A stretch of DNA of 64,000 bases, from assembly GCF_016907235.1 (NCBI RefSeq), contig NZ_JAFBBO010000001.1, forward strand, positions 434,001 to 498,000. Direction: 5' to 3'. Source of the stretch: Oerskovia jenensis. Lineage in GTDB: Bacteria > Actinomycetota > Actinomycetes > Actinomycetales > Cellulomonadaceae. The position numbers and the translations under genes were made by a program. The notes below the pieces were generated by a model. That model worked only from the letters and a program-made list of their open reading frames with translations, was not told the DNA's origin and did no database searches. Below, one piece after another: positions 1-11,665 of the stretch; within the stretch, counting starts at the first letter, position 1; each line of letters opens with the position of its first letter.

Positions 1-2768
1 AGGATGTTGTGCGTCGCCTCGCGGATGTCGCTGACCGCCTTGGCCGACGTGGTGTCCCCGAGGGACTTCGACGGCTGGAAGGTCAGGGTGAGGTCCGTAC
101 CGGCGCTGATGCTCTGGTTCGGGTTCATGTAGGGGTACAGGTTGAAGTCCGAGATCGCGAAGCCCTCGAAGCCCCACTCGGTGCGCAGGACGTTCGTCAT
201 GAGCGCCTCGGAGCCGCCGGCCCACGTGGCGCCGATGCGGTTGAACGAGCTCATGATGCTGCCCGCACCGATCGTCGTCTCCGAGATCGTGCCCTCGTCG
301 TCGGACACGTACTGCACGTCCATGGTGATGCCCTTGACGGCCATCTCGAACGGCTTGAGGTAGATCTCCCGGATCGTCTGCTCGGTCGCCCAGGTGGCGA
401 TGCCGTTGTTGACGCGGTTGGTCTCCTGCTCGTTGAGCGCGAAGTGCTTGAGCGCGGTGTAGACGCCCTTGGTCGCAGCACCGTTGGCCACCGAGGTCGC
501 CATCGCGCCGGAGAGGAACGGGTCCTCCGAGTAGTACTCGAAGTTGCGCCCGCCGAACGGTGAACGGTGCAGGTTCATCGCGGGTGCGTACCAGCCGTTG
601 ATGCCCTTGAACATCGCCTCGTTGCCGAGCATCTCTCCCATGGCCGCACCGAGCTCGACGTCCCACGTCTGCGCGATGAGGAACTCCGAGGGGTAGGCCA
701 CCCCGTTGATGGAGGAGTTGATGAAGGACGAGAACCCGGCGGGGCCGTCGGGCTCGACGGTCTGCGGCTTGGCGATCGAGCCGATCGCGGCCGTCTGGTA
801 GGCGCCGTTGAGCAGCATGGACGTCATGTCACCGACCGAGACGGCGTCGAGCAGCTCGTCCCACTTCGGGTCGTCCTTGGGCAGACCACGCATGTCGACG
901 AGCGTCAGCTCGGTCGGCGCACCCGTCGTGGGCTTCTCGCCCTCGAACGCCGCAGCGGCTGCCTCGAGGTCCCAGGGCTCGAAGCCCTTCTGGACGGCCT
1001 CGTCGGCGACGAGCAGGTCCGCGGTCGGGGCCTTCGGGAACGTCCCGGCGAAGTCCGCGCGGGACATCGACAGGATCTTGCCGTCGGTCGGCTCGGCGCT
1101 GAACTGCGCCGAGACGTCGTCGAACTGGTTGGTGACCTCGGCGAGGTCCGTCGCACGGTGGTCGTCACCCGAGTACACGATGTCGGAGTCCACCGTGTAG
1201 ACGATGGGCTCGGTGCCCGGGGCGACGGTGTGGGAGTCGGTCCGCAGCGTGATGTCGTAGGCGCCCGCCTCGAGGACGTACGCCTTGTTGCCCAGGTGGT
1301 CGTAGGACGCCATGTCCTCGACCGCGAGGTCGATCGTGACGGTCTCGCTCGCACCGGGCTCGATCAGCCCGGTCTTGGCGAATCCGCCGAGCACGACCTC
1401 GGACTTCTCGATACCGCCCGCCGTGTAGGGAGCGGAGTAGTAGAGCTCGACGACGTCCTTGCCCGCGGTGGCGCCCGTGTTCGAGACCTCGACCGTGACG
1501 GAGATCTTCCCGTCGACCTCACCGGCCTCGGTGCTGACGACCTTCCAGGCGAAGTCGGAATAGCTCAGGCCGTACCCGAACGGGTAGACGACGGCCTGGT
1601 CGTAGTCGATGAAGCCCTCGGCCGCCGCGGTCTCGTAGTAGCGGTAGCCGAAGTAGATGCCCTCGGCGTAGTTCACGAACGGCGCGTCGGACGTGAGCGT
1701 GGCGTTGGAGGTTGCCTTCTCGATCGCGGGGACCGGGAAGGACGCCTCGATGTTGTCGTAGACGAACCCGCCGAAGTTGGCGAAGGTCGGGTCGGCCGTG
1801 AAGTCGGCCGCCCAGAGGTCCGCGGTACGGCCCGACGGGTTCACGTCGCCCGCCAGGATGCGCCCCAGGGCGCTGAGGCCCGTGGCGCCCGGCGAACCGG
1901 CCAGCAGGATCGAGTCGATCTCGGGGTCGTCCTGCAGGGCGCCCATCTCGATGGTGGTCGAGGAGTTGACCACGACGACCACGTTCTCGAAGCTCGACTT
2001 CGCGAGCTCGATCATGTCCTTCTCGTCCTGGTTCAGCTCGAGCTGGTGCTGCCCGGGTGCGGCGTTCTCGTCCCAGCCGGTCATGTCCTGCGTGAGGTCA
2101 CCGCCCTCACCGCCGGGGCGTCCGACGAACACCACGGCAGCGTCCGAGTAGTCGGCGAACGACGCGGACTGCGCCTCGTACTCGCCGACCGGCAGCTCAC
2201 CGATGTAGTAGGTGGAGATGTCGGGGCGGTCCATCTCGATGTAGCCCCGGGGGTTCTCCGCAGCGAACGCCTCGATCGTGGTGAAGACCTGGTCGTTCAC
2301 CTCGAAGCCGGCGTTCTCCAGCCCGGCGCGGGCCGTGACGGCCGAGTTCGTGTCGACCGAGCCGGAGCCCGAGCCACCGAACACGGGGTCCGCGGCCGAG
2401 CGACCCAGCATCGTCACGCGCGAGCTCGTCGCGAGGGGAAGCGTGCCCGCCTCGTTCTTGGCCAGGACGATGCCGCCTGCGGCGATCTCCTCGACGAGGG
2501 CCTTGGCTGCCTCGTCGACCTCCTCGATGCTGCCGAAGTCGGACGTGTAGTACTCGGTGTCCCAGCCGGCGGACTCGGCCGCGTTCGTGAACTCGTACGT
2601 GCCGGAGCCGAACTGGGACGCGACCCAGCCGCCTGCGACGTTGAGCGCGACGTTCGCGACGACCGTCACCACCGTCACCGTGGCGAGGGCGGGGGCCCAG
2701 ATCCACAGGTACTTCTTGTTCGACATCGGCTTCTTCTGCCGGTCGGCGTTGTTCGCCTTGGCGTTCAC
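1..2768 (-). CDS. GH3 beta-glycosidase with swapped domain order, membrane-anchored; 3' end beyond the window edge
   Basis: Partial gene of about 922 codons; its end lies outside the window. GTG at 2768 is preceded by GGAGGA with suitable spacing. The ATG at 2773 hits TGA after two codons, so GTG is the start. A hydrophobic segment (about residues 20-45) suggests an N-terminal membrane anchor or uncleaved signal. The order of GH3 parts is inverted. The (alpha/beta)6 sandwich comes first (GRPGGEGGD near residue 216), then a fibronectin-like part. The TIM barrel follows, with FGGRNFEYYSEDP near 740, KHFALNEQE near 774 and the putative nucleophile Asp in GFAISDF near 873. This inverted order is known for some Ruminococcus and Butyrivibrio beta-glucosidases. 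Expected role: exo-acting hydrolysis of beta-glucosides or xylosides outside the membrane; substrate not determinable. Confidence 0.88.
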   Translation of the reverse strand, partial: MNAKANNADRQKKPMSNKKYLWIWAPALATVTVVTVVANVALNVAGGWVASQFGSGTYEFTNAAESAGWDTEYYTSDFGSIEEVDEAAKALVEEIAAGGIVLAKNEAGTLPLATSSRVTMLGRSAADPVFGGSGSGSVDTNSAVTARAGLENAGFEVNDQVFTTIEAFAAENPRGYIEMDRPDISTYYIGELPVGEYEAQSASFADYSDAAVVFVGRPGGEGGDLTQDMTGWDENAAPGQHQLELNQDEKDMIELAKSSFENVVVVVNSSTTIEMGALQDDPEIDSILLAGSPGATGLSALGRILAGDVNPSGRTADLWAADFTADPTFANFGGFVYDNIEASFPVPAIEKATSNATLTSDAPFVNYAEGIYFGYRYYETAAAEGFIDYDQAVVYPFGYGLSYSDFAWKVVSTEAGEVDGKISVTVEVSNTGATAGKDVVELYYSAPYTAGGIEKSEVVLGGFAKTGLIEPGASETVTIDLAVEDMASYDHLGNKAYVLEAGAYDITLRTDSHTVAPGTEPIVYTVDSDIVYSGDDHRATDLAEVTNQFDDVSAQFSAEPTDGKILSMSRADFAGTFPKAPTADLLVADEAVQKGFEPWDLEAAAAAFEGEKPTTGAPTELTLVDMRGLPKDDPKWDELLDAVSVGDMTSMLLNGAYQTAAIGSIAKPQTVEPDGPAGFSSFINSSINGVAYPSEFLIAQTWDVELGAAMGEMLGNEAMFKGINGWYAPAMNLHRSPFGGRNFEYYSEDPFLSGAMATSVANGAATKGVYTALKHFALNEQETNRVNNGIATWATEQTIREIYLKPFEMAVKGITMDVQYVSDDEGTISETTIGAGSIMSSFNRIGATWAGGSEALMTNVLRTEWGFEGFAISDFNLYPYMNPNQSISAGTDLTLTFQPSKSLGDTTSAKAVSDIREATHNI

Positions 2769-2923: not shown

Positions 2924-3337
2924 CTACTCCGACACCTCGGAGATCTTTCCGTCCTGGTCGATCTGCCAGGTCTGGCCGGTAGCGGCCGAGTCGCCCTCGA
3001 TCGTGAACTTGCCGTCCTTGATGTCGACCGTGCCCTGCACGCGCGACGCGGCGTCCGAGGCCGTGTAGGGCACCACGAGGAGGCCGTACTTGACGGTCGG
3101 GGCCTTGACGTCGCTGGCAAGCATAATCTGGGCCCAGGAGTCGTCCTCGGCCAGGGCGTCCGTCACGGCCGTCTTGGCGTTCTCGAGGTCTTCCTTGATG
3201 TCGACGTCCGCTGCCTGCTCCGCGGAGGCGTTCGCGCCGGAGTCGCTGTCGCCGCTGCCGCAGGCCGTGAGGCCGAAGAGCCCCGTCAGGCCCAGCACGA
3301 CGCCGAGGCCGGTGGTCAGCACCTTGTTCTGCTTCAC
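2924..3337 (-). CDS. Small putative lipoprotein, function unknown
   Basis: 137 aa. GTG at 3337 has AGGAGC 5 nt upstream; the longer in-frame ATG at 3451 lies in the hairpin region and would give an unlikely N-terminus. The N-terminus is a lipoprotein signal: a KQNK basic part, a hydrophobic stretch, then the lipobox LTAC. After Cys come a Gly/Ser/Asp linker and an acidic Ala-rich segment. The C-terminal half (SAATGQTWQIDQDGKISEV) looks like a small beta-rich extracytoplasmic domain. I recognise no family. It lies between two GH3 genes on the same strand, but hairpins on both sides suggest separate transcription. It may be a surface accessory protein; this is inference. Confidence 0.8.
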   Translation of the reverse strand: MKQNKVLTTGLGVVLGLTGLFGLTACGSGDSDSGANASAEQAADVDIKEDLENAKTAVTDALAEDDSWAQIMLASDVKAPTVKYGLLVVPYTASDAASRVQGTVDIKDGKFTIEGDSAATGQTWQIDQDGKISEVSE

Positions 3338-3464: not shown

Positions 3465-5876
3465 TCAGTCCGTGATCGGCCCCGCGTAGTTCAGGCCGAA
3501 GCCGTAGTCGTACGAGCTGCCCGCGGTGTCCGTGTAGGGCGTCATGTCCTTCGAGACGTCCTCGAGCTGGGCCTCGACCGTGTTCATGTCCTTCGGGAAC
3601 TGGATCGGCAGGCGGCCCTGCGGCTCGTAGAGGCCGAGCGCGACCTCGATGAGCGCCTGGTCGCTGACACCGAAGCCCACGACGATGGCGTCGGACTTGC
3701 CCTCGAACTCGGACGGGACGACCGGGTTGATCGCCTTGAGGACCGTGATCACGGGGATGTCCTTGCCGGTGGCCTCGACGGCTGCCGTGGCACGCTCGAA
3801 CGCGTCGAGGTCGGACTCGTTCGCGATCTTCGAGGTGTTGCCGAAGTACGAGCGGTTCTGCTTGGTGCCGTCGGCCAGGATGTCGCCCGAGAGCGAGACC
3901 TTGCGGACGTGCTCGCCGTCCGCCGTGTACGGGCGGTACTGCAGCGACAGCGGGTACCAGGTGTCGTTCTCCAGGTTGTGACCGATGTTGGAGAAGTTGC
4001 CTCCGTTGTCCGGCGAGTCCATGCCCACGAGGACGACGTCGACGTCGGCGAGGTCGGGAGCGGTGTAGCTCGTCACGACGCCCTCGGCGTCGGTCACGGC
4101 CTCGTCGGTGACGACCTTGCCGAAGTACTTCTCGGCGGTCTCGACGTCGATGCTCGGTGCCTCGGTGTACTCACCGGGACCGAACGCGCCGGGGAAGCCG
4201 GTGTTGAAGTTGCGAGGGATGTAGGCGGTCTTGTCCTTCCAGTCCGCGGCGTCCGCGGCCGAGATGGTCTCACCGTCGTTCTTGACCATGACCACGGAGT
4301 CGAGCTGGGCCGCGTAGCCCGCCTCGACCTTGTCGTCGCTCGCGAGGACCGACTTGGACTGCTCGAGGTCGAGGAACGGGTTCTCGTACAGGCCCGGGTT
4401 GAAGAACATCGTCAGGATGCGTGCGCCCGACTCCTGGAAGCGGGTCTGCGCGTCCTCCTCGAGCTCGCCGGCCTCGAACTTCTGCTGCCACAGGTCGGCA
4501 GCCTCGAGGATGTGGGTCGCGTCGTTGACGCCGCCGAACATGTCGTGACCGGTACCCAGCACCTTGAGGTAGCGCTCGGCCGGGGTCAGGTCCTCGGCCC
4601 CCCACGCCATGCCGAACATCTCGCCCTCGTCGTCGGCGCCGCTCATGACGCCCCAGTCGGTGACCACGACGCCCTCGTACCCGGCATCCTTGCGGAGCTG
4701 GTCCATGCGGTCCTGGTCGTACGCCGTGCCCGTGCGGTCGGTGAACATCGGGTCACCGTTCGCGTCGAGAGCGATCGAGTACGCGGTCATGACCGCCGCG
4801 GAGTCGAGCGACCCGAGGAACGCCTGCTGCTGCGCCGCGATGTTGTCACCGGGGTACACGCCGTACTTGCCCGCGTCGGTGTGACCCTCGCGGCCGCCCT
4901 CGCCCGGACCGTCGCCGGACCAGTGCTTGATCATCGCGTTGACGGACTCCGGACCCCACTGGTCCGTGCCCTCGCTGCCCTGGTAGCCGTCGACGTAGGC
5001 CGCGGCCAGCTCGGTGTTCTGGTCCGCGTCCTCGCCGAACGTGCCACCGACGCGCAGCCAGCGCGGCTCGGTCGCGAGGTCGATCTGCGGCGACAGGGCC
5101 GTCGTCAGGCCGAGCGCCCGGTACTCCGCCGAGGACATCTCGCCGAAGTTCTTGGTGTGCTCGGGGTTGAACGTCGCGGCGAGGCCGAGGTTGGACGGCC
5201 AGCGCGAGATGTCCGCACCCTCGGCGTTGTAGCCGCCGGATCCCGCGGTCGAGCGCGGGTCGGAGGCGAAGTTCACCGGGACGTACGGGGTGCCCTCGGC
5301 CGCGAGGGTCTCCGTGTACGCCTGCATCGCGTTCGCCCACTTGACGGTCGCCTCGGCGTCGCTCGCGCCGGCGTGCAGCACGTTGCGCAGGTCGGAGTCC
5401 TTCAGGTACTCCTTCTGCGCGTCGGTGAGCCCGTCGACCTGGGAGCGCTCGTGCGAGCTGAACAGCATCAGGCCGGCGATCTGCTCGACCGACATCTCCT
5501 GGGCGAGGTCTGCCGCGCGGTCCTTGGCCGGGACGCGCCAGTCCTCCCACGTGTCCAGCGTGCCGTTGCCGTTCATGTCCTTGAACGCGGACTTCTTGCC
5601 GTCGACCTCCTCGGTCAGCAGCTCGATCCCGCTGTCGGCGCCGTACGAGAGGACCGGGCCGTCTCCGGGGTTCGTGACGACGACGAAGTCGGTCTTGCCG
5701 TCGGTGACCTCGCGGGTCGTGAAGGCCTTGGAGTCGTTCGCGGACTCCTCGTCAGCGGTGCCGCTGGTGCACCCTGCAACCGCGATCAGGGCGATCGCCG
5801 AGAGCGCTGCCGCTCCCTTGGCCCCTCTGGTCATCCTCTGGCCTCGTCGGGCCGTAGCCGTAGTCTTCATCGACAT
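3465..5876 (-). CDS. GH3 beta-glycosidase, lipoprotein
   Basis: 803 aa from ATG 5876, or 801 from ATG 5870; the second ATG overlaps the stop of a short upstream frame. The N-terminus has RRGQR, a hydrophobic stretch and lipobox AVAGC, so the enzyme is probably tethered to the outer membrane face. Domain order is the usual one: TIM barrel first (FASDPRS, KHWSGDGPGEGGREGHTDAG), with the putative nucleophile Asp in GVVVTDWG near residue 404. The (alpha/beta)6 domain follows (VVLVGMDSPDNGGNF). The KHWSGDGPGEGG style is typical of large secreted actinobacterial GH3 exo-beta-glycosidases. Substrate unknown. It is transcribed from the repeat-containing upstream region at 6066-6140 that it shares with the gtrA operon. 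Confidence 0.9.
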   Translation of the reverse strand: MSMKTTATARRGQRMTRGAKGAAALSAIALIAVAGCTSGTADEESANDSKAFTTREVTDGKTDFVVVTNPGDGPVLSYGADSGIELLTEEVDGKKSAFKDMNGNGTLDTWEDWRVPAKDRAADLAQEMSVEQIAGLMLFSSHERSQVDGLTDAQKEYLKDSDLRNVLHAGASDAEATVKWANAMQAYTETLAAEGTPYVPVNFASDPRSTAGSGGYNAEGADISRWPSNLGLAATFNPEHTKNFGEMSSAEYRALGLTTALSPQIDLATEPRWLRVGGTFGEDADQNTELAAAYVDGYQGSEGTDQWGPESVNAMIKHWSGDGPGEGGREGHTDAGKYGVYPGDNIAAQQQAFLGSLDSAAVMTAYSIALDANGDPMFTDRTGTAYDQDRMDQLRKDAGYEGVVVTDWGVMSGADDEGEMFGMAWGAEDLTPAERYLKVLGTGHDMFGGVNDATHILEAADLWQQKFEAGELEEDAQTRFQESGARILTMFFNPGLYENPFLDLEQSKSVLASDDKVEAGYAAQLDSVVMVKNDGETISAADAADWKDKTAYIPRNFNTGFPGAFGPGEYTEAPSIDVETAEKYFGKVVTDEAVTDAEGVVTSYTAPDLADVDVVLVGMDSPDNGGNFSNIGHNLENDTWYPLSLQYRPYTADGEHVRKVSLSGDILADGTKQNRSYFGNTSKIANESDLDAFERATAAVEATGKDIPVITVLKAINPVVPSEFEGKSDAIVVGFGVSDQALIEVALGLYEPQGRLPIQFPKDMNTVEAQLEDVSKDMTPYTDTAGSSYDYGFGLNYAGPITD

Positions 5877-5905
5877 CCCATTTCGTCGCGCTTGCGGGTG
5901 TACAC
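5867..5905 (-). CDS. Possible 12-aa leader peptide upstream of the GH3 lipoprotein
   Basis: GTG at 5905 sits 8 nt after a strong AAGGAG, and the 12-codon frame ends in TGA overlapping the ATG at 5870 (ATGA). The 21-nt stretch around this Shine-Dalgarno site (5904-5924) is identical to 11421-11441 upstream of the gtrA operon. The AAGGAG is too far from the GH3 start to serve it directly, so translational coupling through the short frame is an inference. The peptide is Arg/Lys-rich. Confidence 0.35.
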   Translation of the reverse strand: MYTRKRDEMGCR

Positions 5906-5924
5906 GTGTGTGTCTCCTTCGACT
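5904..5924 (-). promoter_or_regulatory. Conserved 21-nt leader element with Shine-Dalgarno, copy 1
   Basis: Read on the minus strand it contains GTCGAAGGAGACACACACGT, and it is identical to 11421-11441. Sequence on both sides is also similar, for example the GTCGG-type stretches near 5988 and 11503. The two upstream regions are therefore homologous over about 240 bp. Confidence 0.6.
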
Positions 5925-6065
5925 CTTCAAGTGCTGCCGCGCTGCAGATGCCCCCTTGCGGCACCATCGATCGTGCGGACCTGGCCGACATCGGAGTCGG
6001 TCCTCGTCCGTGCAAGGCTGTGCTGCCCGTGGTACACGTGGTGTCCCATCACCGAAGCCCAGCGG

Positions 6066-6140
6066 ACTCATCACAGCGCGCTTCACGACGGGCTCCCGCC
6101 CGTTCTGCACAACCTGTCGATTTGAGTGCACAAACTGTCG
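6066..6140 (-). promoter_or_regulatory. Putative operator: twin 14-bp direct repeats plus GCGCTGTGATGAGT box, copy 1
   Basis: On the minus strand CGACAGTTTGTGCA (6140-6127) and CGACAGGTTGTGCA (6119-6106) are tandem direct repeats exactly 21 bp apart. 26 bp further on is GCGCTGTGATGAGT (6079-6066). The same three boxes with identical spacing occur at 11591-11665. Two-turn spacing suggests a dimeric or cooperative regulator; none is encoded next to it. The rest of 5925-6376 holds only the GGCCA repeat and the terminator listed separately. Confidence 0.65.
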
Positions 6141-6262
6141 CCGCGGTCGCCCCCGGGAGCACCGGTGCTCCCGGCACGCAGGCGCTCCACGGTGTCCGGC
6201 ATGCGGTCGCCGTCCATGTCGGGCGGTCGCGCAGACGTGGCCGCAGACGCTCGCACGACGAC

Positions 6263-6300
6263 CGGGCCGGGCCAGGCCGGGCCAGGCCAGGCCAGGCCAC
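6263..6300. repeat. Short GGCCA/GGCCG tandem repeat
   Basis: About seven consecutive 5-bp units of the form GGCC(A/G) lie in the non-coding stretch between the glycosyltransferase terminator and the GH3 regulatory region. It is probably a slippage-prone microsatellite. No coding function is seen. Confidence 0.6.
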
Positions 6301-6327
6301 TGAGCTCGCGCGCCGGTGCGCACACGA

Positions 6328-6358
6328 GAGGCCCGGCACCGTAGCGGTGCCGGGCCTC
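6328..6358 (-). terminator. Strong terminator hairpin of the gtrA-GH3-gtrA-GT2 operon
   Basis: A perfect 14-bp inverted repeat (GAGGCCCGGCACCG) with a 3-nt loop lies 18 nt after the glycosyltransferase stop. It is the last element of the operon. Confidence 0.75.
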
Positions 6359-6376
6359 CCGGGGTGGTGCTGTGGT

Positions 6377-7405
6377 CTAGTTGAAGCCGATGACGCGTTG
6401 GGCGGTCTTGTAGGCCAGGACGGACAGGTGGCGTCCAGGTCTGCCGGGGAGGTGGGAGATCTGGTGCAGGGTGGTGCGGCGTAGTCGCCGGTACAGGGCG
6501 GGGTCGTGGGCGGCGACGTCGGCCCAGAACTCGTCTCTCTTGCGCAGGGCGTCGTGGGTGCCGGCGCGGACCAGGAGCATCGAGGAGACCAGGGACACGA
6601 TGTCGAGGTAGTGCAGCATGTAGCGCTTGAGGGCGCGGGGGGTGGCGGGGTTCGCGCGGGCCGCGGACAGGTGTTCCATCATGGTGCGGTTGATGCGTAG
6701 CTGTTGGTCCACGCGCGAGATCATCACGGTCTCGTTGACGGACTGGTCGGCGCGGCCGATGTAGTACCGGTAGAGGTCGACGTTGAGGTAGTACAGGCGC
6801 CGGACCGCGGGCAGGGGTGCGTAGGCGTAGAGGTTGTCGACGTAGAAGGTGTGCTCGGGCAGGACCAAGGCGACCTCGCGCAGCAGGTCGGTGCGGTAGA
6901 TCAGGGAGTGCATGAGGATGTACTGGTTCTTGCGCAGTCGCCCGACCTGGTCCCAGCCCAGGACCCGGTCCTGGGGCAGGGCGTTGGTGTAGCGCACGGC
7001 CCTCTTGTTGCGCTTGTCGACCTTCTCGTAGACGAAGTTGCTGATCAGCACGTCGATGCCGGTCTCGTGGGTGACGAAGGACTCCAGCAGGTCCAGGACC
7101 TTGGCGTAGGCGCCGGCCTCGAGCCAGTCGTCGGAGTCCACGATCTTGATGAACCGCCCGCGCGCGTTGGCCAGGCCCGTGTTGATCGCGGCCCCGTGGC
7201 CCCCGTTGGGCTGATGGATCGCGCGCACCACCCCCGGGTGGGCGGCGGCGTACCGGTCAGCGATCTGGGCCGTGTCGTCCCAGGACCCGTCGTCCACGAT
7301 CAAGATCTCCACCCGCGCACCACCGGGCAGCAACGAGTCGATGCTGCGGTGCATGTACGCCGCGGAGTTGTAGCACGGCACCACGATCGTCAACAGCTTG
7401 GACAT
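6377..7405 (-). CDS. Glycosyltransferase family 2
   Basis: 342 aa. The N-terminal GT-A fold has TIVVPCYN, EILIVDDGS (nucleotide binding) and IVDSDDW (metal-binding DxD), followed by about 220 residues typical of single-domain actinobacterial and lactobacillal GT2 enzymes. There is no membrane segment, so it acts at the cytoplasmic face with a nucleotide-sugar donor. It follows gtrA by 11 nt and is last in the operon. GtrA proteins flip or partner polyprenyl-phosphate sugars, so this enzyme may glycosylate a lipid-linked or wall glycan. Acceptor and sugar are unknown. ATG at 7405 has no strong Shine-Dalgarno, which fits coupling to the gene before it. Confidence 0.9.
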   Translation of the reverse strand: MSKLLTIVVPCYNSAAYMHRSIDSLLPGGARVEILIVDDGSWDDTAQIADRYAAAHPGVVRAIHQPNGGHGAAINTGLANARGRFIKIVDSDDWLEAGAYAKVLDLLESFVTHETGIDVLISNFVYEKVDKRNKRAVRYTNALPQDRVLGWDQVGRLRKNQYILMHSLIYRTDLLREVALVLPEHTFYVDNLYAYAPLPAVRRLYYLNVDLYRYYIGRADQSVNETVMISRVDQQLRINRTMMEHLSAARANPATPRALKRYMLHYLDIVSLVSSMLLVRAGTHDALRKRDEFWADVAAHDPALYRRLRRTTLHQISHLPGRPGRHLSVLAYKTAQRVIGFN

Positions 7406-7416
7406 CAGCGCACTCT

Positions 7417-8118
7417 TCAGACTTCCTGGCCCGCACGGGCCGACGACGAGGACTCCCCCGCACCCCCGGCCACCGGCACACCCGCCACCTGAGCAGGGCC
7501 GGGCGCCTCGGCCTGCTCGGCCTGGACCTCGGGGTCACGCTTGAAGATGATCTTGAAGATCGGGAAGAACACCCAGAACGATAGAGCACTGTTGATGATC
7601 ATCGTGACCATGTCGGCCGCGGTCTCACCCGTCTTGCCCCACCCCCACGTGTCGATCAACAGTTCGTAGATCGGCGCCTTGTACACGCCCTGCAACGCCG
7701 CCGCCGCGAACGTGATCACCACATAGGCCACCACGTACCAGAACGCCGCCCGCCAGATCGAGGTGTTCGACTTGAACGTCACGTTGCGCTGAGCGAAGAA
7801 GTTGATCACCTGCGCGATCAACAACGTGATCTGCACCGCCAAGAAGTACGCCAACCCACCCCCACCCTCAGGCAACGCCCCCGCCGCGTAGTCGAACACG
7901 AAGAACGACGACCCATCCGGATTCGACCCCACCGGCAACACCTGAAAGCTCGTGTCCACCAACCCCGTCAACCCGAACGCCGCCTTGAACGCCGGCATCA
8001 ACGCCAGCTGCAGCACCGTCACACCATTGCTCAACAAGAAGAACAACAAGAACTGCGCCGTCCCCGGACGCCGCTCAGCAAACCCCGACCACGCCTGACC
8101 AATCCGACCGAACATCAC
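7417..8118 (-). CDS. GtrA-like membrane protein, copy 1
   Basis: 233 aa from GTG 8118 (ATG at 8115 is nearly equivalent). GtrA/DPMS-synthase-associated family: about four membrane helices with the family pattern LLIAQVINFFAQRNVTF in the middle. Members are proposed to flip undecaprenyl-phosphate sugars or to help polyprenyl glycosyltransferases. A hydrophilic tail rich in Glu, Ala and Pro follows the last helix. It is clearly paralogous to the protein at 10663-11295, sharing LAYFLAVQ, NVTFKS, FAAAALQG and the C-terminal IIFK block. The GH3 gene ends 41 nt upstream and the GT2 gene begins 11 nt downstream, so it is part of a four-gene operon. Confidence 0.88.
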   Translation of the reverse strand: MMFGRIGQAWSGFAERRPGTAQFLLFFLLSNGVTVLQLALMPAFKAAFGLTGLVDTSFQVLPVGSNPDGSSFFVFDYAAGALPEGGGGLAYFLAVQITLLIAQVINFFAQRNVTFKSNTSIWRAAFWYVVAYVVITFAAAALQGVYKAPIYELLIDTWGWGKTGETAADMVTMIINSALSFWVFFPIFKIIFKRDPEVQAEQAEAPGPAQVAGVPVAGGAGESSSSARAGQEV

Positions 8119-8159
8119 ACACTCACTCTCAGGAAGAAGGAACGAACCGGGCGCGCGCC

Positions 8160-10553
8160 TCAGCGCGCGAGCTCGGCCCGCATCCGACGGGTGGAGCGGC
8201 GGTTGCGGAAGAATCCGGCGATCAGGGCCCCCGTCCCACGGAAGAAGTGGCCGTTGACGATCGTGAGGAGGCCCTCGGCCATGTCCATGCTCATGGCGCC
8301 GTTCGTCATCTTGGCGATCGCCCGGAAGGGCATGCCGCGCAGGAACAGCAGGTTCAGGTCAGGGGTGCCCTTGGCCTCGGCCCGGGCGATCCGCCGAGCG
8401 AGCTCGCGGTACGCGAACCGGGCCAGCGGGCTCCGGGCGTGCTCCATGTCCGACAACGGGCTGTTGACGCCGAGTGGCCCGGTCGCCCGGCCGCGCGGGG
8501 CCAGCGGGCGCCCCAGGAGCGCCGCGAACGCCTCGTCGGAGACGTCCGTCACGTGGCCGGTACGGTACTCGTCCGGCACCGCGTCGAGACCGGCAGCGGC
8601 GGTCCCCGCGACGACGTGCTCGGCGGTCAGCAGCACGGTCTCCACGTCGGAGCCCACGGCGAGCGTCCACGCGCCCCCCTCGGTCTCCCACGTGCCCGTC
8701 GCCGTCGAGAAGTGCCGGAAGGTGAACCGGTCGAACCCGATGTGCACGCGTCGGGACTCCCCCGGAGCGAGGTGCACCTTCGCGAAGCCCTTGAGCTCAC
8801 GCACCGGCCGGTGCACGCCCTCCGTCCCCTCGCGTCCTACGTAGAGCTGAGCGACCTCGGCCCCCGCGACGTCACCCGTGTTGGTCAGGGTGAACGTCAC
8901 GCCGTCGGCGTCGACCGCGAGGTCCGTGTAGGCGAACGTCGTGTAGCTCAGGCCGAACCCGAACGGGAACGCGACGGGGACGCCGACCGTCGAGTAGTAG
9001 CGGTAGCCCACGTAGGGGCCCTCGCGGTACTCGGCGTCGACCCCTTCGCCCGGGTAGTACCGCACGTTGGGCACGTCCTCGAGCCGGACCGGGTAGCTCT
9101 CCGCGAGGCGTCCCGACGGGTTCACCGCACCTGTCAGGACCCGCACCACGGCCTCGGCGCCGCCCTGGCCGCCCAGGTAGCCGTGGACCAGCGCCCCGCA
9201 CTGCGACAGCCACGGCACCTCCACGACCGAGCCCGCGCTCAGCACGACCACGATCCGGCTCGTGACCGAGGAGAGCCGCGCCAGCAGCTCGACCTGGCTC
9301 TGCGGAAGTCGCAGGTGGCTGCGGTCCTGCCCCTCGGACTCGCTGATCTCGTCCAGGCCGAGGTACAGCAGCACCACGTCCGCCGCGCGCGCCGCGTCGA
9401 CGGCCTCCGCGACGAGCGCGGGGTCCGAGGACCCGCCGCGCGTGAAGCCCTGCGCGGTCGCCACGACCTGCAGGTCCGAGGCGCCCAGGGCATCCAGGGC
9501 CGTCGTGAGCCGGGTCGGGTTGACGACCGAGGAGCCGGCACCCTGGTAGCGGGGCGTCGCGGCGAAGTCGCCGACGACCGCGACCCGGGTCCCCGACGCC
9601 AACGGCAGGAGGTGGTCCTCGTTGCGCAGCAGCACCGCGCTCTGCTCGGCGACGGTGCGCGCCAGCTCGTGGTGCGCCTCGAGGTCGACCTCACGTCCCG
9701 CCCCACCGATGCGGCTCCCGAGGACCTTCATCTCCTCGACCCGCGCGTCCAGGTCGGCCATGTCCAGGTCGCCCCGCTCCACGGCGGCCACGATCTGCGC
9801 GGCCGAGTCGAGGCCGGGCGAGGGCATCTCGAGCGTGCCGCCACGGCGGACCGCCTCGACCGCGTCGTTGCCGCCGCCCCAGTCCGTCACGACCGCGCCG
9901 TCGAAGCCCCACTCGTCCCGCAGCACCTGCTGGAGCAGGAACGGGTTCTCGTTGGCGTACGTGCCGTTGATCAGGTTGTAGCTCGACATGATCGAGAACG
10001 GCGAGGACTCGCGGACCACGACCTCGAACCCCGTCAGGTAGATCTCGCGCAGCGTCCGCTCGTCCACCACGGAGTCGCTCGTCATGCGGCGCAGCTCCTG
10101 GCTGTTGGCCGCGAAGTGCTTGGGGCAGGCCGCGACCCCGCGCGACTGGATCCCCCGCACGTAACCGGCGGCCAGGCGCCCGGAGAGCAGCGGGTCCTCG
10201 GAGAAGTACTCGAAGTTGCGGCCGCACAGGGGGCTGCGCTTGACGTTGAGACCCGGGCCGAGCAGCACGTCCACGCCCTGGTCCGCGGCCTCGGCGCCGA
10301 GCGCCTCCCCGACCGACAGCGCCAGCTCGGGGTCCCAGCTGTTCGCGACCGTGGCCGCCGTCGGGAAGCAGGTCGCGGGCTGCGACGCCCCCAGGCCGAG
10401 GTGGTCGGCCGAACCCGTCTGCTTGCGGATCCCGTGCGGGCCGTCGGACAGCCACAGCGTCCGGATCCCGTGCCGAGGTACCGCGCGCGTCTCCCAGACG
10501 CTCTCCCCGCTGAGGAGCGCGGCCTTCTCGAGCGTGGTCAGTTCTTCCGTCAT
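8160..10553 (-). CDS. GH3 beta-glucosidase, cytoplasmic
   Basis: 797 aa. ATG 10553 follows GGAAG with a 7-nt gap. There is no signal peptide. Canonical GH3 order: TIM barrel (LWLSDGPHGIRK, RNFEYFSEDP, KHFAANSQE, putative nucleophile Asp in GAVVTDWGGGND near residue 222). The (alpha/beta)6 domain carries SEGQDRSHLRLP near 407, where the acid/base Glu is expected. A fibronectin-like C-domain (VRELKGFAKV) follows, then an unusual extension of about 90 residues rich in Arg and Met. It lies between two gtrA paralogues, so its substrate may be an imported beta-glycoside or a product of the GtrA/GT2 pathway. The placement is unusual; cytoplasmic location is inferred from the missing signal. Confidence 0.92.
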   Translation of the reverse strand: MTEELTTLEKAALLSGESVWETRAVPRHGIRTLWLSDGPHGIRKQTGSADHLGLGASQPATCFPTAATVANSWDPELALSVGEALGAEAADQGVDVLLGPGLNVKRSPLCGRNFEYFSEDPLLSGRLAAGYVRGIQSRGVAACPKHFAANSQELRRMTSDSVVDERTLREIYLTGFEVVVRESSPFSIMSSYNLINGTYANENPFLLQQVLRDEWGFDGAVVTDWGGGNDAVEAVRRGGTLEMPSPGLDSAAQIVAAVERGDLDMADLDARVEEMKVLGSRIGGAGREVDLEAHHELARTVAEQSAVLLRNEDHLLPLASGTRVAVVGDFAATPRYQGAGSSVVNPTRLTTALDALGASDLQVVATAQGFTRGGSSDPALVAEAVDAARAADVVLLYLGLDEISESEGQDRSHLRLPQSQVELLARLSSVTSRIVVVLSAGSVVEVPWLSQCGALVHGYLGGQGGAEAVVRVLTGAVNPSGRLAESYPVRLEDVPNVRYYPGEGVDAEYREGPYVGYRYYSTVGVPVAFPFGFGLSYTTFAYTDLAVDADGVTFTLTNTGDVAGAEVAQLYVGREGTEGVHRPVRELKGFAKVHLAPGESRRVHIGFDRFTFRHFSTATGTWETEGGAWTLAVGSDVETVLLTAEHVVAGTAAAGLDAVPDEYRTGHVTDVSDEAFAALLGRPLAPRGRATGPLGVNSPLSDMEHARSPLARFAYRELARRIARAEAKGTPDLNLLFLRGMPFRAIAKMTNGAMSMDMAEGLLTIVNGHFFRGTGALIAGFFRNRRSTRRMRAELAR

Positions 10554-10662
10554 GGTTCTGCTTCCGTTCCCCCACGGAGGTCTTCTCACGTGGGTGCACT
10601 GGTGTGGATCTGCCTGCCCGACCGGTCCGACGGGCTGCGTTGCTCTGGGGCAGGTGTCGCGG

Positions 10663-11295
10663 CTAGCGCGCCGCCTCGGTGACCTGCTCGGGGACGATCG
10701 GTTCCGGGACCTGGCCGCCGTCGGGCCCGGGCACCTGCTTGAAGATGATCTTGAGGATCGGGAAGTAGACGACGACCGAGATGAGTGCGTTGATGATCAT
10801 CGTGACGAGGTCGGCTCCGACCTCCCCGGTGCTGCCCCAGCGATCGACCATCCACTGGTAGATCGGCTCCTTGTAGAACCCCTGCAACGCCGCGGCCGCG
10901 AAGGTGATCAGCACGTACGCGACGGAGTACCAGGCCGCGGCACGCCAGATGTTCGTGTCCGACTTGAACGTGACGTTGCGCTGGAGGAAGAAGTTGATGA
11001 CCTGAGCGATGAGGAGGGTGACCTGCACCGCGAGGAAGTACGCCAGCCCCCCACCCCCCGTGGGCAGGGCACCCGCCGCGTAGTCGAAGAGGTAGAACGG
11101 GGAGCCGTCCGCGTTCGTGCTCACCGCGAGCGCCTGGAACGTCTGGTCCACGAGCGGGGTCAGGTTGAAGATCCCCTTGAACAGCGGCATCAGCGCGAGC
11201 TGGAGCACGGTCATCCCCGTGCTCAGGAGCGAGAACATGATGAACTGCGCGACCGTGGGGCGCCGCGCGGAGAGGTCAGCCCAGGCCGTGCGCAC
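10663..11295 (-). CDS. GtrA-like membrane protein, copy 2
   Basis: 210 aa. Start GTG 11295 is chosen because AAGGAGG lies 5 nt upstream and the N-terminus then aligns with the paralogue (RRPTVAQF versus RRPGTAQF). The longer ATG-started frame adds an Arg-rich, low-complexity N-terminus. About four membrane helices; the conserved block LLIAQVINFFLQRNVTF is nearly identical to copy 1. It is first in the operon, 109 nt before the GH3 start. Proposed role: membrane partner or flippase for polyprenyl-linked sugars. The two copies flanking one glycosidase suggest gene duplication followed by divergence. Confidence 0.88.
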   Translation of the reverse strand: MRTAWADLSARRPTVAQFIMFSLLSTGMTVLQLALMPLFKGIFNLTPLVDQTFQALAVSTNADGSPFYLFDYAAGALPTGGGGLAYFLAVQVTLLIAQVINFFLQRNVTFKSDTNIWRAAAWYSVAYVLITFAAAALQGFYKEPIYQWMVDRWGSTGEVGADLVTMIINALISVVVYFPILKIIFKQVPGPDGGQVPEPIVPEQVTEAAR

Positions 11296-11422
11296 GTGCG
11301 CCTCCTTCAGGCTCGGAGAAGGTCGTGCCGGAGCGTCGGAGGCTCGCGCTGCCCGCCTGCGGGCCGGCCACGCCATCGCTGCGCACGGCCTCGGGTGCGG
11401 CGGGATGCATGCGTGGGTCCAC
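11276..11422 (-). CDS. Possible 48-aa leader frame overlapping the gtrA start
   Basis: GTG 11422 lies 8 nt after AAGGAG within the conserved 21-nt leader element. The frame runs 48 codons and stops 20 nt inside gtrA. Start context matches the short frame at 5905 upstream of the GH3 lipoprotein, but the peptides share nothing beyond the first residues. It could couple or dampen gtrA translation, or be chance. Confidence 0.25.
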   Translation of the reverse strand: MDPRMHPAAPEAVRSDGVAGPQAGSASLRRSGTTFSEPEGGARAHGLG

Positions 11423-11441
11423 GTGTGTGTCTCCTTCGACT
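11421..11441 (-). promoter_or_regulatory. Conserved 21-nt leader element with Shine-Dalgarno, copy 2
   Basis: Identical to 5904-5924. It contains GAAGGAG followed 8 nt later by GTG. It lies 126 nt upstream of the gtrA start, so it cannot be that gene's ribosome binding site. Confidence 0.6.
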
Positions 11442-11590
11442 GTCCAAGAGCTGTCGCCGACGCGGGGCCGCCCCGCCTCACCGTCGACCTCGTGGGTTCG
11501 GGCGACGTCGGAGGTCGAGGACCGCGACTGCGGAGGGCAGCGACGCCCGGGTGGTCCGTGGCAGTGGTGCCGCTCGCCGTGTGATAACGA

Positions 11591-11665
11591 ACTCATCACA
11601 GCGCACCACCGGCGAGGCGAGCGGTCGGTTTGCATAACCTGTCGGTTCTGGCGCACAACCTGTCA
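11591..11665 (-). promoter_or_regulatory. Putative operator: twin 14-bp direct repeats plus GCGCTGTGATGAGT box, copy 2
   Basis: Minus-strand boxes TGACAGGTTGTGCG (11665-11652) and CGACAGGTTATGCA (11644-11631) are 21 bp apart. GCGCTGTGATGAGT (11604-11591) follows at the same distance as in copy 1. It heads the gtrA-GH3-gtrA-GT2 operon. The rest of the gene-free stretch 11442-11836 contains a repeated GGACCGCAGCCGG (near 11746 and 11787); I see no gene in it. Confidence 0.65.

Follow-up and report, generated by a model that had tools for sequence, protein, structure and literature searches.

In a 64,000-nt window of the Oerskovia jenensis genome (contig NZ_JAFBBO010000001.1, positions 434,001 to 498,000), two units of glycan-related genes lie on the minus strand, unit 2 directly upstream of unit 1, and each is preceded by a pair of short direct repeats, here called boxes, that we interpret as the predicted operator of a LytTR-type response regulator (RR). 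An earlier reading of the letters alone (the sequence-only reading) had claimed two GACAGGTTGTGC-type boxes 21 bp apart before both units, which we were able to confirm. Specifically, on the minus strand, GACAGGTTGTGC (6107-6118) and GACAGTTTGTGC (6128-6139) precede unit 1, and GACAGGTTATGC (11632-11643) and GACAGGTTGTGC (11653-11664) precede unit 2, with a period of exactly 21 bp in both cases. The spaced-pair pattern has two matches in the window and none in 100 dinucleotide shuffles. Single boxes with up to two mismatches numbered 9 against 5.1 expected, a count reached by 8 of 100 shuffles and hence not significant, and the signal therefore sits in the spaced pair. The promoter elements are the following:

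6107..6139, minus strand: operator site 1, found by the pair pattern; two 12-mers (distal 6128-6139, proximal 6107-6118), the proximal box invariant in 6/6 Oerskovia site-1 loci
6070..6075, minus strand: site-1 -10-like hexamer TGTGAT, 31 nt past the proximal 12-mer, invariant in 6/6 site-1 loci
11632..11664, minus strand: operator site 2, found by the pair pattern; two 12-mers (distal 11653-11664, proximal 11632-11643), the proximal box invariant in 7/7 Oerskovia site-2 loci
11595..11600, minus strand: site-2 -10-like hexamer TGTGAT, 31 nt past the proximal 12-mer, invariant in 7/7 site-2 loci

The identical 14-mer that the sequence-only reading had placed after the boxes holds in position and identity (GCGCTGTGATGAGT at 6066-6079 and 11591-11604, 26 nt past the 14-nt box both times; repeat D3), but it is not a separate part of the operator, because it contains the -10-like TGTGAT, which is replaced by TTGACT at a third site described below. 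The Shine-Dalgarno element that had been noted as 21 identical nt is likewise real, and the ribosome-binding stretch common to sites 1 and 2, AGTCGAAGGAGACACACACGTG, is identical over 22 nt within repeat D7.

Genes of the two units

The genes in the two units are listed here; some of the frames scanned with Pfam were longer than the genes, whose starts and lengths were set separately.

3468..5876, minus strand: GH3 lipoprotein (GH3lipo), 803 aa, first gene of unit 1; Pfam PF00933 and PF01915 (longer frame scanned), lipobox-like N terminus by eye
2927..3337, minus strand: small lipoprotein (lipo), 137 aa, unit 1; kept beside GH3 genes in relatives
1..2726, minus strand: membrane GH3 (GH3mem), 982 aa, unit 1, with permuted domains (GH3 C domain first); continues past the left end of the window to G000:C1:433781
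10666..11295, minus strand: GtrA-family membrane protein 1 (gtrA1), first gene of unit 2; PF04138 31.5 bits (longer frame)
8163..10553, minus strand: GH3 enzyme (GH3cyt), 797 aa, unit 2; Pfam GH3
7420..8115, minus strand: GtrA-family membrane protein 2 (gtrA2), unit 2; PF04138 25.1 bits, slightly below the cut-off of 26.1
6380..7405, minus strand: GT2 glycosyltransferase, 342 aa, unit 2; PF00535 93.5 bits

The sequence-only reading had joined a surface glycosidase, a cytoplasmic glycosidase, two GtrA proteins and a GT2 enzyme in these units; the glycan-related genes stand as listed, but unit 1 also contains the small lipoprotein and a third GH3 gene that leaves the window. In the scanned frame of this membrane GH3, the C domain spans residues 111-414, an Fn3-like domain 449-523 and the N domain 701-911, with transmembrane (TM)-like segments at both ends. 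The small lipoprotein (longer frame scanned) matched no Pfam or NCBIfam family, and its structure model (mean pLDDT 73) had no match in the PDB library at E <= 0.001. In unit 2, GtrA is encoded together with GT2, and one of the two GtrA proteins (31.5 and 25.1 bits) exceeds the PF04138 cut-off. Neither the GT2 enzyme nor the GH3 at 8163-10553 has a TM-like segment, and no signal was seen in the latter. Its NCBIfam match to exo-alpha-arabinopyranosidase, at 712 bits, falls below the cut-off of 1300, and we claim no substrate from it. We set aside as candidate regulator a TetR gene just upstream of unit 2, which by eye adjoins a divergent FAD-dehydrogenase-like frame and shows no link to the other sites that we could see.

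Around the two promoters we noted further small features. At site 1, the shared ribosome-binding stretch is followed by the GTG start of a 12-codon frame (VYTRKRDEMGCR, 5867-5905, minus strand), present in 6/6 Oerskovia site-1 loci, whose TGA overlaps the ATG of the GH3 lipoprotein, making translational coupling possible. At site 2 (11276-11422, minus strand), the stretch opens frames of 46-48 codons in 5/7 loci, overlapping gtrA1 in the window, and in the other 2/7 (G001 and G004) it runs straight into the gtrA frame. Upstream of site 1 lie short GGCCA/GGCCGGGCCA repeats (6263-6299; repeat D14) and, just past the GT2 gene and between unit 2 and the site-1 promoter, a hairpin, CCGGCACC-GTAGC-GGTGCCGG (6333-6353), that resembles a terminator without a T run.

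A third site beside a LytTR two-component system

The source genome (G000, 4.45 Mb in one contig) contains a third good box pair at C1:2442018-2442050, 2 Mb from the sites in the window. What had been read as a two-locus regulon thus has three good sites, and with so few in 4.45 Mb the boxes are not a dispersed repeat, the finding that would have refuted the earlier idea. Site 3 lies upstream of a second gtrA2-GT2 pair (unit 3), divergent from a UDP-galactopyranose mutase gene (glf) and beside genes for a response regulator and a histidine kinase. The RR gene (G000:C1:2437791-2438501, outside the window) matches PF00072 at 58.8 bits and PF04397 (LytTR) at 62.8 bits, both above cut-off, and its product is 93% (L071) and 89% (L072) identical to those of other Oerskovia. 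The adjoining gene encodes a GHKL-type membrane histidine kinase (PF14501, 71.5 bits) with three TM-like segments and a YHDLKHF motif, a GHKL kinase partner as in AgrC. This places the candidate regulator about 2 Mb from both window units, unlinked to them as had been predicted, and it is the only one of three LytTR genes in the genome that lies near a box pair. Another of them (L026, G000:C1:170798-171082) is followed by a small membrane-protein-like frame; by eye it resembles a LytTR regulatory system, and no box pair is near. Two weaker matches complete the genome scan: a fourth pair at G000:C1:3646475, with two mismatches, directly follows the 3′ end of a gene and by eye has no T....T at -10, and we consider it a chance match, and a further match at 479641 has three mismatches.

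The gtrA2-GT2 pair of unit 3 is a near copy of that in unit 2. Its GT2 gene (G000:C1:2439986-2441011) is 99% identical to that in the window, and the two pairs (window 6380-8115 and L023 7987-9722) are 99.4% identical over 1765 bp; in G005, the copies are 99.94% identical over 1760 bp. Between the two species, divergence over these regions is about 6-8%, and the near-identity within genomes suggests that gene conversion has kept the copies evolving in concert.

Three box pairs are present in six of seven Oerskovia genomes. G001 has two, and its site 1 may lie off the contig, whose end is 2.6 kb from the start of the membrane GH3. The pair-pattern control gave no matches in these narrower scans of the source genome and of Oerskovia. 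Across 6, 7 and 7 Oerskovia loci for sites 1, 2 and 3, the proximal box (box 2) is invariant at 14/14 positions at each site, and while 8 of the 14 positions per box are fixed by the pattern used to find the loci, the 6 free positions of the proximal box are also invariant. The distal box is invariant at 12, 12 and 14 of 14 positions. The -10-like hexamer is invariant at 6/6 positions at sites 1 and 2, and at 2/6 at site 3 because locus L020 is, by eye, one nt shorter. By contrast, the 60 nt upstream of the boxes are invariant at 1, 0 and 1 positions, in line with the earlier proposal that the boxes are under selection.

The arrangement of the sites can be described with the 9-mer ACAGGTTGT as 9-mer, 12 bp, 9-mer, with the -10-like hexamer another 33 nt on, a distance found at all three sites of the source genome and one nt shorter at site 3 of G005. 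The hexamers are TGTGAT at sites 1 and 2, TTGACT at site 3 and TTGGCT in G024 (Xylanimonas oleitrophica). In the excerpts drawn on here, published LytTR repeats are 9 bp long and mostly 12 bp apart, with a 21-bp period (PMC6193735, PMC2766830), and are strongly biased to lie 10 bp before the -35 element, with tabulated spacers of 13-17 (PMC6193735). With a 17-bp spacer, 10+6+17 gives 33 nt to the -10, and so the distance that we observe is that of the LytTR layout; the sequence-only reading, which knew of no described system with this layout, had overlooked that direct repeats of 21-bp period, placed at a constant distance before the -10, are a known arrangement. No -35-like hexamer was recognized in the GC-rich gap, which would fit an activator-dependent promoter. 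The LytTR repeat consensus is [TA][AC][CA]GTTN[AG][TG]; ACAGTTTGT (site 1, distal) and ACCGTTCGT (L075 and L176) fit it, whereas ACAGGTTGT does not throughout.

Recurrence in Cellulomonadaceae and beyond

We searched 150 genomes of the family Cellulomonadaceae for the regulator (E <= 1e-30), the membrane GH3 (E <= 1e-180) and the GT2 enzyme (E <= 1e-80). The regulator was present in 39 genomes and the membrane GH3 in 38, all of them RR-positive, against 0/111 RR-negative genomes. In G009, the RR-positive genome with no membrane GH3 at this threshold, a GH3 relative of 38% identity lies beside the RR gene (L183). The GT2 enzyme was found in 36 genomes, again all RR-positive; the RR-positive Oerskovia drafts with no GT2 match are G002, G003 and G006, in which we suspect collapsed repeats. 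Box pairs with up to one mismatch occur in 14/39 RR-positive and 1/111 RR-negative genomes (Fisher 1e-8, or 1e-4 without Oerskovia), and in that one RR-negative genome, G019, the matches overlap as units of a tandem repeat and were set aside.

Whether boxes stand upstream of related genes in other genera had been fixed beforehand as a test of the idea, and they were found there. With a profile built from eight Oerskovia box variants, we scanned 38 non-Oerskovia loci (644 kb) for pairs at spacings of 14 to 31; these loci had been picked for the regulator or the boxes, and the scan thus tests spacing and position, not genome-wide rarity. An earlier scan of 26 loci at score 11 had placed 30 pairs at the 21-bp spacing against 37 over all others, some of the 21-bp pairs being weak or in coding sequence, after which the threshold was raised to 15, loci were added and the results at 15, 20 and 24 were tabulated. 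A score of 15 or higher is reached by 30 pairs with the 21-bp spacing and by 17 pairs spread across the 17 other spacings. Raising the score to 20 leaves 25 and 5 of these, respectively, with a single pair, at 21 bp, in the reversed sequence; at 24 or higher, 23 remain at 21 bp and none at other spacings or in the reversed sequence. None of the 30 pairs at 21 bp lies inside a gene of the system, and 29 lie upstream of one (GH3mem 12, GH3lipo 10, GtrA 4, GH3cyt 2, GT2 1). A T....T motif stands at the exact -10 offset in 26/30 of these pairs, the next best offset reaching 9/30, and the hexamer had played no part in their selection.

The gene order around these operators differs between genera. 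Most other Cellulomonadaceae loci, like those of Microbacterium and Nesterenkonia, have all or part of the string GH3lipo-lipo-GH3mem-GH3cyt-gtrA-GT2 on one strand, beside the regulator and kinase and often glf. Oerskovia has three units, gtrA1-GH3cyt-gtrA2-GT2, GH3lipo-lipo-GH3mem and gtrA2-GT2, each with an operator, and in G098 (L154), GH3cyt-gtrA-GT2, GH3lipo-lipo-GH3mem and gtrA-glf each follow a box pair in one place, next to the regulator and kinase. Apart from L159, a 4.6-kb contig, the RR loci L025, L074-L077, L109 and L151-L168 all have GH3, GtrA, GT2 or glf beside the regulator. We also observed that in G153 (L156 9447-13691) two different RR copies surround one kinase gene and glf.

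Related loci also occur outside Actinomycetota. Among 25 loci (24 Clostridia-type or Bifidobacterium loci, L078-L101, plus L108), 21 have a relative of the regulator (about 33-45% identity) and one of the membrane GH3 in the same stretch, and the clostridial locus L098 reads GH3-GT2-glf-RR-RR-HK-GH3, where HK denotes the kinase; six further RR matches (L102-L107) have no membrane-GH3 relative. In L096, the RR and GH3 promoters both have repeats 21 bp apart and 31 nt before TATAAT, of a different sequence, and L099 is similar, which is suggestive only of clostridial operators of the same geometry. Among 12-mer repeats in 47 clostridial upstream regions, 21 bp leads the other spacings only narrowly (5 regions against 4 for the runner-up). 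L096 and L099 stand out when repeats are combined with a TATAAT-like hexamer, a count inflated by overlapping windows, and in the majority of the 25 loci no clear signal emerges. We tentatively raise the idea, which we would not yet favor, of a cross-phylum module in which a membrane-anchored permuted GH3, a GHKL kinase and a LytTR regulator would sense and remodel a self-made surface glycan (GtrA/GT2/Glf); it might span Cellulomonadaceae, Microbacterium, Nesterenkonia, Bifidobacterium and gut Clostridia (Faecalibacterium, Gemmiger), with the operator sequence changing and the geometry staying.

Regulator, output and relation to known systems

The operators, with the conservation, spacing, -10 position, gene linkage and co-occurrence described above, point to the boxes being, very probably, the operator of the LytTR-type regulator paired with the GHKL kinase and controlling the three glycan-gene units. 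The sequence-only reading was thus right in essence to propose one regulon with glycan-related targets, though there are three sites and an identifiable regulator. We infer that the regulator binds the boxes, and that it activates rather than represses. The kinase would sense a cell-envelope signal and phosphorylate the regulator, a dimer of which would bind the two direct repeats and recruit RNA polymerase to promoters with a -10 at a fixed distance and no recognizable -35. Unit 1 (GH3 lipoprotein, small lipoprotein and membrane GH3), unit 2 (gtrA1-GH3-gtrA2-GT2) and unit 3 (gtrA2-GT2) would then be switched on jointly. To judge from the gene families, GtrA, GT2 and glf may serve to build a surface glycan and the GH3 enzymes to trim it or recover sugar, so that the output would be both synthesis and trimming, and the single glycan-remodelling pathway proposed earlier is plausible. 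The position of glf beside unit 3 suggests that the glycan perhaps contains galactofuranose.

Several observations weigh against this interpretation. As searched, 25/39 RR-positive genomes have no box pair, although several have weaker ones, and the reversed control pattern gives 27 matches in 22/150 genomes (by our count 2/39 RR-positive and 20/111 RR-negative); because it is so common, the number of forward matches (11 outside Oerskovia, without G019) proves nothing, and it is the tie to the regulator and the position that does. In the profile scan, the reversed sequence at score 15 yields 36 pairs, of which 2 have the 21-bp spacing, 4 of the 30 pairs in relatives have no T....T at the exact offset, and 13/38 loci have no pair, some of the fragments stopping short of the string's first gene. 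Close relatives are among the 38 loci, and the 30 pairs are therefore not independent, and one strong pair (L075 9784-9818, minus strand), near an RR gene, has no recognized gene downstream. The pair patterns used detected none upstream of the RR gene in Oerskovia, which lends no support to autoregulation. Of the residues that we take to be the base contacts of AgrA, the His is kept in the RR alignment and the position presumed to be Asn201 is Ser. Finally, the genome has two other LytTR genes.

The main functional rival keeps the same LytTR control and differs in output, which would be the breakdown of an external plant glycan, as in polysaccharide utilization loci (PULs), instead of work on the cell's own surface glycan. 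The solved relatives of the three GH3 enzymes are largely named beta-glucosidases, the LytTR-GH3 pairs of Butyrivibrio were placed in PULs (PMC2914790), and some gut Clostridia loci have a GH2-like gene, named by eye, beside the regulator and kinase. Against this, no transporter is found among the genes of the three Oerskovia units, the conserved partners GtrA, GT2 and often glf point to glycan synthesis and export, and a GH3 gene recurs with GT2 and glf in clostridial L098. We regard this output as possible and the less likely of the two.

That some other regulator binds the boxes, either one of the remaining LytTR proteins or a member of a direct-repeat family, seems distinctly improbable. 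The genome does encode three LytTR proteins, and families such as AraC-type and SARP regulators also use direct repeats two helical turns apart. Nevertheless, neither of the other LytTR genes is near a box pair, whereas the gene of the proposed regulator adjoins site 3, neighbours the glycan genes of other genera and occurs in every one of the 38 genomes that have a membrane GH3, and the +33 distance to the -10 is that of the LytTR layout, as far as the excerpted sources describe it. Least credible of all is that the boxes are no operator, or a disused one, copied with a promoter when the gene string was split, since although the single string of most other genera means that the promoters may share ancestry, and sites 1 and 2 also have the ribosome-binding stretch in common, box 2 is invariant at three Oerskovia sites against 0-1 of 60 upstream positions, and boxes with this spacing are found in other genera equally far from the -10.

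The proposed LytTR control would give genes that otherwise have domain names only both a regulator and an operator, and would group them as a coherent set of targets, in Cellulomonadaceae and perhaps in gut Clostridia. That one LytTR regulator and one membrane GH3 occur together almost without exception (38/39 against 0/111 genomes) invites direct experiment. The operator type and the regulator family are known. The apparent target gene set was not found described: we found no account of this regulon, of its operator or of the GtrA-GT2-glf partners in open-licence PMC articles, subscription papers being outside the search. Among the articles drawn on (PMC6193735, PMC2766830, PMC5320581, PMC13390465 and PMC2914790), a connection between LytTR and GH3 is made in PMC2914790 only.

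Among known systems, HdrR/BrsR, SilA and AgrA share with Oerskovia the LytTR domain and two 9-bp direct repeats 12 bp apart at a fixed promoter distance, as far as the portions of the literature drawn on here describe them. The Oerskovia system differs in its targets, actinomycete genes for glycosidases, GtrA and GT2, in its box, CGAC(A/C)G-T--TGC, and in having no pair before the RR gene; no autoinducer peptide gene was noticed, no systematic search having been made. The gsf cluster of Actinoplanes missouriensis, a GtrA glycosylation system (PMC13390465, in the part drawn on here), likewise combines a GtrA membrane protein with GT2, whereas the Oerskovia units include GH3 enzymes and a LytTR system and their GT2 has no TM-like segment; no GT-C transferase was recognized among the genes of the three units, the rest of the genome not having been searched. 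A further parallel is in Butyrivibrio proteoclasticus, where PULs 7, 21 and 33 were described in 2010 as having a LytTR response regulator near a secreted GH3 with a C-terminal TM helix (PMC2914790). The LytTR-GH3 link is common to both, and the Oerskovia membrane GH3 also ends in a TM-like segment. The excerpted part of that report names no operator, whereas in Oerskovia, a member of Actinomycetota, the GH3 genes are set with GtrA, GT2 and glf in three units.

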